In this document: positions 6,805-15,572 of the stretch, piece after piece
Numbering within the stretch: position 1 is the first letter of the stretch
Layout: every line of letters begins with the position of its first letter
Assembly: GCA_021325435.1 (NCBI GenBank)
Contig: JAJPHE010000055.1
Span: 1 to 49,905, forward strand
Length of the DNA stretch: 49,905 nucleotides
Reading direction: 5' to 3'
DNA from: Actinomycetota bacterium
GTDB lineage: Bacteria; Actinomycetota; Acidimicrobiia; Acidimicrobiales; JAJPHE01
Position numbers and translations under genes: made by a program
The notes under the pieces: model-generated
What the model was told of the DNA's origin: nothing
Databases searched by the model: none
The model's input: the letters and a program-made list of their open reading frames with translations, nothing else

Positions 6805-9800
6805 ATGGCTCTGGATCGTTGGCCGGTGCTGCGTCAGCTTCGAGGTGAGGACCGGCTGGGCCGGGGCGCCGCCGTCAAGTCCGAGCGCTCGGAGGGGCTG
6901 ACCCCCCGAACGAGCTCGGCCGACGAAGTGGTCAAGTCAATCTGTCCCTACTGCGCCGTCGGCTGCGCCCAGAACGTGTACGTGAAAGATGGCCGGGTCG
7001 TGCACATCGAGGGCGACCCGGACTCGCCGGTCAGCCGGGGCCGGCTCTGCCCGAAGGGATCGGCCAGCCTGCAGCTGACGACGGGCGAGGCCCGGCTCCA
7101 CAAGGTCCTGTACCGCCGGCCTCACGGGACCGACTGGGAGGAGCTCGAGCTCGACCGGGCCATGGACATGGTCGCCGACCGCGTCCTCAAGACCAGGAGC
7201 GAGACCTTCGAGTGGGAAGACGGCGAGGGAGCCCGGCTGCGCCGGACCCTGGGGATCGCCAGCCTGGGCGGCGCCACGCTGGACAACGAAGAGAACTACC
7301 TGATGAAGAAGCTGTACACGGCCCTCGGGGCCATACAGATCGAGAACCAGGCCCGCATCTGACACTCCTCCACCGTTCCCAGTTTGGGGACATCGTTCGG
7401 CCGGGGCGGAGCCACCACCTTCCAGCAGGACCTCCAGAACTCCGACTGCATCGTCATCGAAGGCTCCAATATGGCCGAGTGCCACCCGGTGGGGTTCCAG
7501 TGGGTCATGGAGGCCAAGGCCCGGGGGGCGACGGTCATCCACGTCGACCCTCGCTACACCCGAACCAGCGCCCTCGCTGACGTCCACGTTCCGTTGCGGG
7601 CCGGCACGGACATCGCCTTCCTCGGGGGCATCATCAACTACGTCTTCGAGCACGAGAAGTACTTCCGTGAGTATCTCGTCTCGTACACCAACGCCACCAC
7701 CATCATCAACGATCGGTACCTCGACACCGAGGACCTCGACGGCGTCTTCTCGGGCCTCGACCGTGAGAACCGCACCTACGACTTCCACACCTGGCAGTAC
7801 GAGGGCATGGAGGTGCAGGCCGCCTCCGGCCAGCGCGACGAGCAGTACCAGGACCGCGCCGGCGGGGGAGGAACGGTCCGCCACGCCGCCCGGGGCGAGT
7901 CGCACGGGTCCGGTGGCGCCGCCATCAGCGGAGACCCCGAGCACGACCCGGAGATGCTCCACACCAGGTGCGTGTTCCAGGTGGTGAAGCGCCACTTCGC
8001 CCGCTACACACCGGCGGTGGTGGAGGAGATCTGTGGCGTCCCCCAGGACCTGTTCCTGAAGGTCTGTGAGGCGGTCACCTCCAATTCGGGGCGAGACCGC
8101 ACGACCGCTTTCGTCTACGCCGTCGGGTGGACCCAGCACACGGTGGGGGTGCAGTACATCCGGACCGCGGCCATCCTGCAGCTCCTGCTGGGCAACATCG
8201 GCCGGCCGGGTGGAGGGATCATGGCTCTCCGGGGCCACGCCAGCATCCAGGGGTCCACGGACATCCCCACCTTGTTCAACCTGCTGCCGGGCTACATCCC
8301 GATGCCTCACGCCCACGAGCACGAGTCGCTCGATGCCTTCATCGAGGCCGACGCGCCGGACAAGGGCTACTGGGGCAACATGAGGGCCTACACCGTCAGT
8401 CTGCTCAAGGCCTGGTGGGGAGCATCGGCCACCGACGAGAATGACTTCTGCTTCGACTACCTGCCCCGCCTGACGGGCAGTCACAGCACCTATGAGACGG
8501 TGCTGGCCCAGATGGACGGCTCCTGCAAGGGCTACTTCATCGTGGGCGAGAACCCGGCGGTGGGTTCGGCCAACGCCAGGATGCAGCGACTGGGTATGGC
8601 CAAGCTCGACTGGCTGGTCGTGCGCGACTTCTCCCTGATCGAGTCGGCCACGTGGTGGAAGGACGGGCCGGAGATCGAGAGCGGCGAGCTGCGCACCGAG
8701 GACATCCCCACCGAGGTCTTCTTCTTCCCGGCCGCGGCCCACACCGAGAAGAACGGCAGCTTCACCAACACCCAGCGGATGCTGCAGTGGCATTTCATGG
8801 CCCACGAGCCCGAGGGCGCCGCCCGCAGCGACCTGTGGTTCTACTACCACCTCGGTCGGATCATCCGGCAGAAGCTGGCCGGCTCCGCCGATCCCATGGA
8901 TCGGCCGGTGCTCGATCTGACCTGGGACTACCCGACCGAGGGGTCGATCGAGGAGCCGAGCGCCGAGGCGGTGCTGGCCGAGATCAACGGTTGGGACCCC
9001 GAGGGGCGCCCCCTCGCGTCCTACCAGCAGCTGAAGGACGACGGGTCGACCTCCTGTGGGTGCTGGATCTACTGCGGCGTCTACGCCGACGGGGTCAACC
9101 AGGCCGCCCGGCGCAAGCCCTGGCATGAGCAGAACTGGGTGGCGAACGAGTGGGGCTGGGCCTGGCCCGCCAACCGGCGCATCCTCTACAACCGGGCCTC
9201 GGCCGACCCGGACGGCAAGCCGTGGAGCGAACGCAAGGCCCTGGTGTGGTGGGACGAGGAGAAGGCAGAGTGGGCGGGCCACGACATCGCCGACTTCTCT
9301 TCGACCAAGCCACCCGGGTACCGGCCCCCCGAGGGGGCGACCGCCGAGGACGCGATCTCCGGCACCGACCCGTTCGTGATGCAGCCCGACGGCAAGGGTT
9401 GGCTGTTCGTGCCTTCGGGCCTGACCGACGGGCCGTTGCCGACCCACTACGAGCCCCAGGACTCGCCGTTCCGCAACCCCCTGTACCGCCAGCAGCGCAA
9501 CCCGGTCCGCCAGGTCTTCAAGCGCAAGGAGAATCGTTACCACCCCGACCCGGAGTCGCCGGGCTCGGACGTCTTCCCATACGTCGTGACCACCTACCGG
9601 CTGACCGAGCACCACACGGCCGGAGGCATGACCAGGTGGCTGCCCTACCTGTCCGAGCTCCAGCCGGAGTTCTTCTGCGAGGTCTCCCCGGAGCTGGCGG
9701 CCGAGCGAGGGCTGGAGCATATGGGTTGGGCCACGGTGGTCACCGCCCGCAACGTCATCGAGGCCCGGGTCATGGTGACCGAGAGGATGACCCCGTTGAC

Positions 9801-10050
9801 GGTGCAGGGCCGCACCGTGCACCAGATCGGTCTGCCGTACCACTGGGGCCCGAACGGGTACTCGACCGGAGACGCGGCCAACGAGCTGGTCGGCCTCAGC
9901 CTCGACCCCAACGTCCACATCCAGGAGGCGAAGGCCTTCACCGCCGACATCCGCCCCGGTCGCCGCCCCCGTGGGCCCGGCCGGGGCGCCCTGGTCGAGG
10001 AGTACCAGCGCCGGGCCGGTATCGGCGAGGAGACGGGGATGGCGATATGA
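6805..10050 (+). CDS. fdhA: Selenocysteine-containing formate dehydrogenase, catalytic (alpha) subunit
   Basis: One gene of 1,081 residues in which the TGA at 7360-7362 is read as selenocysteine (residue 186). Protein similarity to FdnG/FdoG-type enzymes runs without a break across the TGA: NQARI-Sec-HSSTVPSLGTSFGRG, where the E. coli enzymes have a Sec after QAR(V). An N-terminal 4Fe-4S ligand set is visible (Cys47, Cys50, Cys54, Cys82), then molybdopterin-binding regions and a C-terminal MGD-binding domain. It oxidises formate to CO2 at a Mo/W-bis-MGD site coordinated by Sec. An AGGAGGAG ribosome site precedes the ATG. No twin-arginine signal is present. A Gly-rich insertion lies near residues 346-385. 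Stop overlaps the next gene (ATGA). Sec decoding needs selA, selB, selC and selD elsewhere in the genome. Confidence 0.93.
7360..7362 (+). other. In-frame UGA selenocysteine codon
   Basis: The TGA is in the same frame as both flanking coding segments; the upstream part ends and the downstream part begins with conserved formate dehydrogenase sequence, at exactly the alignment position where FdnG/FdhF-type enzymes carry Sec or Cys as Mo ligand. Standard gene callers would call two ORFs, 6805-7362 and 7384-10050. Confidence 0.92.
7375..7391 (+). promoter_or_regulatory. Candidate bacterial SECIS hairpin
   Basis: GTTCCC (7375-7380) pairs with GGGGAC (7386-7391), one G-U pair, closing a 5-base AGTTT loop. 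The loop starts 18 nt after the UGA, has a GU in its first bases, and lies within the coding sequence, all as expected for the stem-loop bound by SelB in bacteria such as E. coli fdhF. Base pairing is read by eye; no folding was computed. Confidence 0.7.
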
Positions 10051-10937
10051 CCTTGACGGAGCTGCTGAGGACCGCCGGCGGCGACCCGGCGACGAATGCC
10101 GGCTACCGCGACCACCCACCCCGGATGGGCTTTTTCACCGACACGTCGGTTTGCATCGGCTGCAAGGCGTGCGAGGTGGCCTGCAAGGAGTGGAACCACG
10201 TGCCCGAGGACGGCCTGGAGCTCACCGGCATGTCCTACGACAACACCCAGGGGCTGGGGGCGGACACCTGGCGGCACGTGGCCTTCATCGAGCAGCGAAA
10301 GCAGCTCGGGAGCCAGGAGCCGGGCGTCTTCCACGACGGGCGGAACGGGAGCACGGCCGGCGGGTCGAGCCAGCTGCGCTGGCTGATGGCCTCGGACGTG
10401 TGCAAGCACTGCACCGAGGCCGCCTGTCTCGACGTGTGCCCCACCGGGTCTCTGTTCCGCACCGAGTTCGGGACGGTCGTGGTCCAGGAGGACATCTGCA
10501 ACGGGTGCGGCTATTGCATCCCGGCCTGCCCCTACGGGGTGATCGACCAGCGCAAGGGCGACGGCCGGGCCTGGAAGTGCACCCTGTGCTACGACCGGCT
10601 GTCGGTGGGGATGGAGCCGGCCTGCGCCCAGGCGTGCCCGACGGACTCCATCCAGTTCGGCGTGCTCGACGAGCTGCGCCAGCGGGCGGCCGCCCGGGTG
10701 GGCCAGCTGCGCGATGCCGGGGTCGCCGACGCCCGCCTCTACGGCCACGACCCCGACGATGGAGTCGGCGGGGACGGGGCGTTCTTCCTACTGCTCGACG
10801 AGCCCGAGGTGTACGGCCTGCCGCCTGATCCCGTGGTGACCACCCGTGACCTTCCGGCCATGTGGCGCCACGCCGCCATCGCCGCCGCCAGCCTGGCCGC
10901 TGGTGTGGCCGCCACGTTCCTGGGCCGGCGTCCATGA
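10047..10937 (+). CDS. fdhB: Formate dehydrogenase iron-sulfur (beta) subunit, FdnH/HybA-like
   Basis: 296 residues with four 4Fe-4S cysteine groups: C36/C39/C42/C46, C119/C122/C127/C131, C151/C154/C157/C161 and C178/C181/C193/C197. This wires electrons from the catalytic subunit to the membrane subunit. The final ~20 residues form one hydrophobic helix (AAIAAASLAAGVAATFL) ending in RRP, a likely membrane anchor as in FdnH. Its ATG overlaps the stop of the alpha subunit and its stop overlaps the start of the membrane subunit, so the three are translationally coupled. An open frame extends upstream to 9150 on the same strand but that part is a shadow of the alpha subunit. Confidence 0.92.
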   Translation: MTLTELLRTAGGDPATNAGYRDHPPRMGFFTDTSVCIGCKACEVACKEWNHVPEDGLELTGMSYDNTQGLGADTWRHVAFIEQRKQLGSQEPGVFHDGRNGSTAGGSSQLRWLMASDVCKHCTEAACLDVCPTGSLFRTEFGTVVVQEDICNGCGYCIPACPYGVIDQRKGDGRAWKCTLCYDRLSVGMEPACAQACPTDSIQFGVLDELRQRAAARVGQLRDAGVADARLYGHDPDDGVGGDGAFFLLLDEPEVYGLPPDPVVTTRDLPAMWRHAAIAAASLAAGVAATFLGRRP

Positions 10938-11956
10938 CCCCGCCCGAGGTGACCCGCCAAGGCGTGGCCAACCCGAGGCCCGGGCGTCAGGCGCCGACGG
11001 GCGGGCGCCGGGGCGGAGCCGAGGCCGCCATGGTCCCCGAGGCGACCTTCGACTCCTATTACGGCAAGCCGGTGATCAACCAGCCGGTGTGGGAGAGCCC
11101 GGACATCCCCGGCTACTTCTACTTCGGCGGGCTGGCCGGGGCGTCGTCGGTGATGGCGGCGGCGGCCGAGGCCAGCCGCCGGCCCCGGCTGGCCCGAGCG
11201 TCCAAGCTGGCCGCCGCCGGCGGGCTGGGGTTGTCTCTGCTGGGGTTGATCCACGACCTCGGGCGTCCGGAGCGGTTCCTCAACATGCTCAGGGTCTTCA
11301 AGCCGACGTCGCCCATGAGCGTCGGCTCGTGGCTGCTCAGCATCTACGGCCCCCTGGCCGTGGCGGCGGCCGGCAGCGAGGTCACCGGCTGGTTCCCCCG
11401 GGCCGGCACGGCCGCGGCGTTCGGTGCCGCTCTTGTCGGGCCGGCGGTGGCGTCCTACACCGGCGTCCTGGTGGCCGACACGGCCGTCCCCGCCTGGCAC
11501 GAGGGCCACCGCGAGATGCCCTACGTGTTCGTCAGCTCGGCGGCGGTGGCCGCCGCCGGCGCCGGGCTCCTCTCCGCTCCTGTGGCGGAGAACGCTCCGG
11601 CCCGCCGCATGGCGGCCATCGGGGTGGCCGGCGAGCTGGCCGGCTCCGCCCTGATGGAGAGGAGGATGGGCCTGGTCGCCGAGCCCTACCGGCGAGGCAA
11701 GGCCGGGGCCCTGGTGCGGGCCGGGCAGGGCCTCGCGGTGGTCGGGGCGGCCGGCGCCGCCCTCGCCGGCCGACGAAGCCGGCTGGCGGCGGCGCTGTCG
11801 GGGCTCGCCCTCATGGTCGGATCGGCCTGCACCAAGTGGGGGATCTTCGAAGCGGGGCTGGCCTCGGCCCGAGACCCCCGCTACACGGTGGTGCCCCAAC
11901 GCCAGCGAGCGGGGACGGTGGGCGAGCACAGGACAGGCCAGCCACCGCCCGGTTGA
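10934..11956 (+). CDS. nrfD: NrfD/PsrC-like membrane subunit of the formate dehydrogenase
   Basis: 340 residues. After a soluble N-terminus (containing YYGKPVINQPVWESPD, as in NrfD-type formate dehydrogenase partners) there are about eight hydrophobic helices, with PGYFYFGGLAG opening the first and a LGLIHDLGRPERFLNM loop after the second. These proteins carry no heme; they exchange electrons with menaquinone. This replaces the cytochrome b gamma subunit (FdnI) of the E. coli complex. ATG at 10934 overlaps the beta-subunit stop (ATGA); the longer open frame from 10862 is not needed. The operon ends here; the next gene starts 41 nt later and is unrelated. Confidence 0.87.
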   Translation: MTPPEVTRQGVANPRPGRQAPTGGRRGGAEAAMVPEATFDSYYGKPVINQPVWESPDIPGYFYFGGLAGASSVMAAAAEASRRPRLARASKLAAAGGLGLSLLGLIHDLGRPERFLNMLRVFKPTSPMSVGSWLLSIYGPLAVAAAGSEVTGWFPRAGTAAAFGAALVGPAVASYTGVLVADTAVPAWHEGHREMPYVFVSSAAVAAAGAGLLSAPVAENAPARRMAAIGVAGELAGSALMERRMGLVAEPYRRGKAGALVRAGQGLAVVGAAGAALAGRRSRLAAALSGLALMVGSACTKWGIFEAGLASARDPRYTVVPQRQRAGTVGEHRTGQPPPG

Positions 11957-14609: not shown

Positions 14610-14981
14610 TCAGGCCCGCAGCGCTGCCACCAAGCCCAACCCCCCGGCGGCCAGGCTCGCGGCCAGATTGGCGAAAGTGAAGGAGGCGGACACGGCGGGC
14701 GACCCTTCCTCGGCCAGCCGCACCGTCTCCCACGCCGCCGTGCTCCACGTGGTCATGCCGCCGCAGAACCCGGTGCCGATGACGGCCTGGGCCCCGCTCG
14801 ACCCGGCATGACGCAGGACCACGCCGGCCACCACGCCGAGGATGAACGAGCCGATGACGTTCACCGTCAGGGTGCCGAACGGGAACAACCCCGATGCCCG
14901 GTCCTGGACCCAGCCGTCCAGGAGGTAGCGCGACACCGCCCCGGCCGCCCCGGCCAGCCCGACCGCTAGCGCCAGAGCCAA
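14610..14981 (-). CDS. crcB: CrcB/Fluc fluoride channel subunit (second of pair)
   Basis: About 123 residues, four hydrophobic helices. The conserved Fluc core is visible: GAAGAVSRYLL, GTLTVNVIGSFILG (Asn and Gly of the pore) and GFCGGMTTWSTAAWE, the T/S-lined track with the central sodium-site region. Fluc forms dual-topology dimers that export fluoride through the cytoplasmic membrane. I choose the TTG at 14981, with GGAGGG upstream, because it gives the normal family length; it overlaps the first crcB gene by 16 nt. Together with the neighbouring copy it is likely a heterodimeric channel, as in many Gram-positive bacteria. Confidence 0.9.
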   Translation of the reverse strand: MALALAVGLAGAAGAVSRYLLDGWVQDRASGLFPFGTLTVNVIGSFILGVVAGVVLRHAGSSGAQAVIGTGFCGGMTTWSTAAWETVRLAEEGSPAVSASFTFANLAASLAAGGLGLVAALRA

Positions 14982-15499
14982 CCGGCCCTCCGCCGGTCGA
15001 AGGCCCGGGCGGTGAGGATCCCGGTCCAGGCCACGGCCACCCCGGCGAAGACCGTCATGCCGACATAGGCCGCCGCCGTCGCCCCGTGCCCTCCACGAAC
15101 GAGCAGGTCCGACTCGACGGCCAGGCTGGACATCGTCGTCCAGGCGCCCAGCACGCCGACACAGAGGAAGGGCCGGAGGTAGCGGGCCGGGCGCACCCGC
15201 TCGAGCAGGACGGTGAGGATGAAGCCGAGCAGGAAGGCGCCCGAGGTGTTGATGGCGAAGGTCGCCCACGGGAGATGGCCCGGGGCCGGCTTCCAGGCCA
15301 GCTCGAGGCCGTAGCGCCCGAGGGTGCCGAGGAACCCGCCGACGGCGATGGCGCCCAGGACGTCGTGCTGGCGGGCCCGGCGGACATGGGCGACGGGCCG
15401 GTGGGTGAGCGCCGGCTCGGCCGGATCGTCGGGGGCGAGGTCAGGGTCGACGGGCAGGCGCTCGTCGTGGTGCTCCCAACGGTGTCGGCGTGGCTCCAT
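14966..15499 (-). CDS. crcB: CrcB/Fluc fluoride channel subunit (first of pair)
   Basis: 177 residues: an N-terminal hydrophilic extension of about 45 residues, then the four-helix Fluc core with GGFLGTLGRYGLE, FAINTSGAFLLGF and CVGVLGAWTTMSSLAVE. The ATG at 15499 has AGGAG upstream. Starts 25 nt after the 3' end of a fluoride riboswitch, giving strong context for the function as a fluoride exporter. The gene overlaps the second copy by 16 nt (translational coupling). The charged N-terminal extension, rich in His/Arg/Asp, is unusual for the family. Confidence 0.92.
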   Translation of the reverse strand: MEPRRHRWEHHDERLPVDPDLAPDDPAEPALTHRPVAHVRRARQHDVLGAIAVGGFLGTLGRYGLELAWKPAPGHLPWATFAINTSGAFLLGFILTVLLERVRPARYLRPFLCVGVLGAWTTMSSLAVESDLLVRGGHGATAAAYVGMTVFAGVAVAWTGILTARAFDRRRAGWLWR

Positions 15500-15523
15500 A
15501 TCTGCTCCTGAACGGTCTCCAGT

Positions 15524-15572
15524 GGCAGACGCCATCAGCCGACACGGCGGTTCCGGGGGGCGTCATCCCCTC
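15524..15572 (-). ncRNA. Fluoride riboswitch (crcB motif) controlling the crcB operon
   Basis: On the minus strand, GAGGGGATGACGCCCCCC, then GGAACCGCC, then GGCTGATGGCGTCTGCC reproduce the crcB-motif order: GATGA loop, GGGG/CCCC stem, GACGCC/GGCGTC outer stem, AAC-CGCC pseudoknot strand and the terminal GCTGATGGC-T-T core. It matches the Thermotoga petrophila aptamer layout closely. It lies 25 nt before the crcB ATG, and the AGGAG ribosome site follows directly, so control of translation or attenuation is expected, with fluoride turning expression on. No downstream terminator hairpin with a T-tract is obvious, favouring translational control (inference). Confidence 0.9.

Follow-up and report, generated by a model that had tools for sequence, protein, structure and literature searches.

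The formate dehydrogenase gene analysed here contains an in-frame UGA (7360-7362) that is almost certainly read as selenocysteine (Sec) in a functional selenoprotein gene. The gene lies in the window, which here means the whole 49,905-nucleotide stretch of contig JAJPHE010000055.1, and belongs to a 4.0 Mb Acidimicrobiales genome that is 96% complete and assembled as a fragmented draft of 160 contigs. Judged from homology and comparison among relatives, positions 6805-10050 are one formate dehydrogenase alpha subunit gene, and the two ORFs found there should be annotated as one. This gene, its elements and the genes that follow it are:

6805..10050, + strand: fdhA, predicted Sec-containing formate dehydrogenase alpha subunit of 1081 residues, stop TGA (ORFs, family matches and PDB alignment)
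7360..7362, + strand: in-frame UGA, predicted Sec residue 186 at the Mo/W ligand position (alignment with the Sec of 1h0h/1kqf; TGA, TGY or TAG in homologues)
7375..7391, + strand: predicted bacterial SECIS apical hairpin, stem GUUCCC/GGGGAC, loop AGUUU (comparison, covariation and folding)
10047..10937, + strand: fdhB-like Fe-S subunit, four clusters and a C-terminal hydrophobic segment (sequence; matches to Fer4_11 and to TIGR01582, the latter below cut-off)
10862..11956, + strand: NrfD/PsrC-like membrane anchor subunit (PF03916, 54.5 bits; maximal ORF, true start uncertain)

The first-pass annotation had described two ORFs of one frame meeting at the TGA 7360-7362, and both the ORF listing, with ORFs at 6805-7362 (185 aa) and 7384-10050 (888 aa), and the translation bear this out. 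The TGA is the only internal one, and when it is read as Sec the frame encodes 1081 residues and ends at another TGA. The TTG at 7384 is merely the first start-like codon past the internal TGA; the frame is unbroken from 7363, and the residues HSSTVPS precede this codon in the fdhA frame. Because an ORF of 1060 aa is also listed on the antisense strand across fdhA, long open frames are weak evidence in this G+C-rich DNA, and since the long ORFs of fdhA mean little alone, the case rests on homology. The NCBIfam model NF041513 matches fdhA over residues 3-1070 with 2040.6 bits (cut-off 1400), TIGR01553 (FDH-N alpha) matches with 953.6 bits (cut-off 814.2), and the 4Fe-4S motif, molybdopterin and dinucleotide-binding domains (PF04879, PF00384 and PF01568) all score above their cut-offs. 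The sequence 3′ of the TGA had been taken for conserved formate dehydrogenase, and the extent of the NF041513 match agrees with this; no part of it is degenerate. The expectation that automatic annotation would split the gene need not hold, because NF041513 is an NCBI 'exception' model that covers the actinobacterial family.

Alignment with phmmer places residue 186 on the X (Sec) of PDB entries 1h0h and 1kqf, with both flanks conserved, in agreement with the earlier proposal that the TGA falls at the Sec Mo-ligand site of known enzymes. The ARI-U-HS of fdhA corresponds to the X-H of these structures, where the metal-ligand Sec is followed by His. The existence of solved homologues means that the placing of Sec is already fixed. 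Among 148 genomes of the order, 31 carry the formate dehydrogenase gene, and almost all of these copies contain an in-frame TGA. Together with 80 further loci from named actinobacteria (e.g. Streptomyces, Actinomadura, Amycolatopsis and Saccharomonospora), a few of which are present in both collections, the homologues have TGA at the Sec site in 89 cases, a Cys codon (TGC/TGT) in 19 and TAG in one, and the protein downstream is intact in the rows inspected. The nearest relatives (G047 and G091) share the TGA. The single TAG belongs to Geodermatophilus sp. TF02-6 (L090:4547-4549) and is followed by the same SECIS; a second apparent TAG (L050) was dropped as a fragment that lacks the region. A distant homologue with 41% identity (G115:C118:21629-23611) also has an in-frame TAG; this may mark Sec encoded by UAG, a pseudogene or the point where the frame ends.

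A further comparative signal comes from the hairpin GUUCCC-AGUUU-GGGGAC, which begins 12 nt past the UGA and thus lies immediately 3′ of it, with G and U in its loop; without mismatch, the motif occurs once in the window. The loop reads RGUYU in all 89 UGA-type genes, and the six rungs of the stem are paired in 100, 100, 99, 100, 100 and 100% of them. The one variable rung joins the wobble bases of a Val codon and a Gly codon and is paired in 88 of the 89 genes (U-A 40, C-G 39, U-G 7, G-C 2; one break). As both bases are synonymous, selection on the protein does not account for the pairing. Among 351 variable third-codon-position pairs surrounding the UGA, this rung ranks highest in mutual information (0.77 bits) and in pairing (99%). 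None of 20,000 shuffles reached this pairing (shuffle maximum 86%); the shuffles ignore relatedness, for which the ranking against other wobble pairs in the same sequences serves as the control. The 19 Cys-type genes lack the SECIS: three of its six rungs are paired in them at ≤37%, and Ala, Val or another residue replaces the Pro (CCC). The folding energy of this one sequence does not beat that of shuffled sequences over 59 nt (z of 0.35) and beats it only modestly over 36 nt (z of -0.8) and 21 nt (z of -2.8), so that the case for the SECIS rests on comparison and not on energy. The alignment gives a clean actinobacterial consensus, GUNCCC-RGUYU-GGGNAC, which could help to find more selenoproteins.

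The first-pass annotation had also predicted a complete Sec decoding system in this organism. Family searches and, for tRNA-Sec, ARAGORN recovered all of its components above curated cut-offs: selA (C60:65796-66917; 417 bits, cut-off 268), the adjoining selB from C60:66983 on (263 bits, cut-off 242), selD on C65 (341 bits, cut-off 125) and tRNA-Sec(UCA) at C66:13136, whose sequence is close to that of tRNA-Sec across the order. The selD frame itself (L163) passes through a TGA in GAG-U-ACK, where SelD enzymes have their active-site Cys or Sec, and SelD is probably a second selenoprotein of the genome. The window has no tRNA at all, so the sel genes are on other contigs, and the Rfam search of the window returned no tRNA-Sec or other recoding element. 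The only Rfam match in the window is a fluoride riboswitch (RF01734, 15519-15579, - strand, 42.5 bits) upstream of two ORFs on the same strand (14966-15535 and 14610-15269) that look CrcB/Fluc-like by eye. Past the selD TGA (L163, C65) there is a perfect 8-bp hairpin, AGCUCGCC-CCU-GGCGAGCU. In the relative G091, selC and selD-, selA- and selB-like ORFs are grouped at most a few kb away from the fdh operon. Across the 148 genomes, tRNA-Sec above cut-off accompanies UGA-type formate dehydrogenase in 26 of 29 genomes, against 59 of 119 others (Fisher p 5e-5), where 59 is a lower bound, since relaxed filters were applied in a repeat search to six genomes only. Three fragmented genomes with UGA-type genes (G047, G080 and G135) have no tRNA-Sec above cut-off, and this counts against the Sec reading.

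In a tree of 107 formate dehydrogenase proteins, the Cys forms make up one side of a single branch with support 100, and under midpoint rooting this clade is nested among the Sec forms. Its members (L027, L074, L079, L083, L101 and 14 others) come from several families. Sec therefore looks ancestral in actinobacterial formate dehydrogenase and Cys derived. Because the Cys forms are one nested clade, one Sec-to-Cys change is enough in this sample, and the distribution suggests one such switch followed by horizontal spread across families.

These comparisons also bear on other explanations of the UGA. Under translation table 11 alone the locus is two ORFs, as it would be if a true nonsense mutation had split a former Cys-type gene and left a pseudogene. 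That origin is very improbable given that TGA stands at exactly the same place in 89 homologues with the protein intact on both sides, that a SECIS absent from the Cys forms is conserved and the sel genes are complete, and that the Cys forms are one clade inside the Sec forms in the midpoint-rooted tree, with Sec the apparent ancestral state. Bacteria are known to read through UGA with near-cognate tRNAs, and this is the point in favour of suppression by a standard tRNA for Trp, Cys or Arg instead of Sec decoding. Such suppression has hardly any likelihood in view of the conservation of this one position, the covariation of the SECIS, the dedicated tRNA-Sec and SelB, and the Sec found at this site in solved relatives. 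A sequencing or assembly error at 7360 might be suspected in so fragmented a draft, but it is less probable still, as the same TGA recurs in other, independent genomes, those of the nearest relatives among them.

With Sec decoding as the preferred reading, a mechanism can be proposed in which the hairpin at 7375-7391 would recruit SelB-GTP-Sec-tRNA(Sec), Sec would be inserted at UGA 7360, and the ribosome would continue into the remainder of the enzyme. The side chain of this Sec would then ligate the Mo or W, whichever the metal, of the bis-pterin cofactor and take part in formate oxidation. In the operon fdhA leads, followed by the fdhB-like Fe-S gene, whose ATG overlaps the fdhA stop (ATGA), and by the NrfD-like anchor gene. 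Electrons would pass from the FeS clusters of FdhA to the FdhB-like subunit, on to the NrfD-like anchor and probably to quinone. The frame, the homology, the Sec position, the conservation of the SECIS and the sel genes can be read from the sequences; the insertion of Sec itself, the metal, the direction of catalysis (formate oxidation) and the coupling to quinone are what we infer for the enzyme. Reading of the fdhA sequence revealed no RR with a hydrophobic stretch in the 40 residues that lead up to the Fe-S domain, and hence no evident twin-arginine signal; the NF041513 model also starts at residue 3. This makes a cytoplasm-facing enzyme the better guess. In the family search, the third gene matches NrfD and not a cytochrome b gamma subunit.

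A second tRNA-Sec(UCA) is present in the same bin, at C125:2208 (68.5 bits; L001/L160:2207-2307). It is well folded, has a long variable arm and is diverged from the C66 copy along much of its length, with stems that, paired by eye, are kept by compensating changes; the acceptor stems are GGGGAUG/CAUCCCC in the second and GGAGGUG/CACCUCC in the first. Its contig of 11 kb has a stretch of lower G+C content with a 1190-aa ORF, and it carries an ORF that, judged by eye, looks like a transposase of the IS21 type. No other genome among the 148 of the order has two tRNA-Sec, and among the 395 genomes of the class three others do; in each of these the two copies score equally and may be repeats. Plasmid and phage searches with the C125 tRNA-Sec yielded only a handful of matches, which are confined to some 75-95 nt of the tRNA itself at 76-81%, and no further copy of the C125 transposon was found in the genome. 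The gene may come from a mobile element or from a contaminant (binning error). It is unlikely that both tRNA-Sec(UCA) genes, strongly diverged as they are, function in this organism, with the C125 copy acquired on a mobile element and acting as another Sec tRNA for UGA under an identity or regulation of its own.

The sequence evidence indicates that the organism makes selenoproteins and that it probably oxidises formate, and the fdhA of the window opens no new question about recoding. No bacterial selenoproteins are more widespread than formate dehydrogenase alpha and SelD (PMC5029168). The alpha architecture of fdhA, its aligned Sec and an Fe-S beta subunit recur in E. coli FdnG (1KQF) and in the tungsten formate dehydrogenase of Desulfovibrio gigas (1H0H). 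The comparison with FdnG/FdoG suggested in the first-pass annotation thus holds for the aligned Sec, whereas a plain enzyme of that type is not what was found: the evident twin-arginine signal is missing and the NrfD-like anchor replaces the FdnI cytochrome b. In Geodermatophilaceae, a formate dehydrogenase of the same family with Sec at UAG was already known (PMC5330540), and the TAG of Geodermatophilus sp. TF02-6 is in line with that decoding; the window gene has the standard UGA. The Sec-containing 'FDH-O' of Streptomyces incarnatus NRRL8089 has an in-frame UGA directly followed by a SECIS, and selABCD are in the genome (PMC4498112, 2015). The window gene and its genome are alike in UGA, SECIS, selA, selB, selC and selD; the sel genes of S. 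incarnatus cluster near the formate dehydrogenase, whereas here they lie on other contigs of the draft (C60, C65 and C66). Compared with the actinobacterial family NF041513 (formate_DH_Act), fdhA is a full-length member in which no difference was found. Sec-containing formate dehydrogenase with UGA read-through is a well-known arrangement in the phylum, of which the window gene is an ordinary case.
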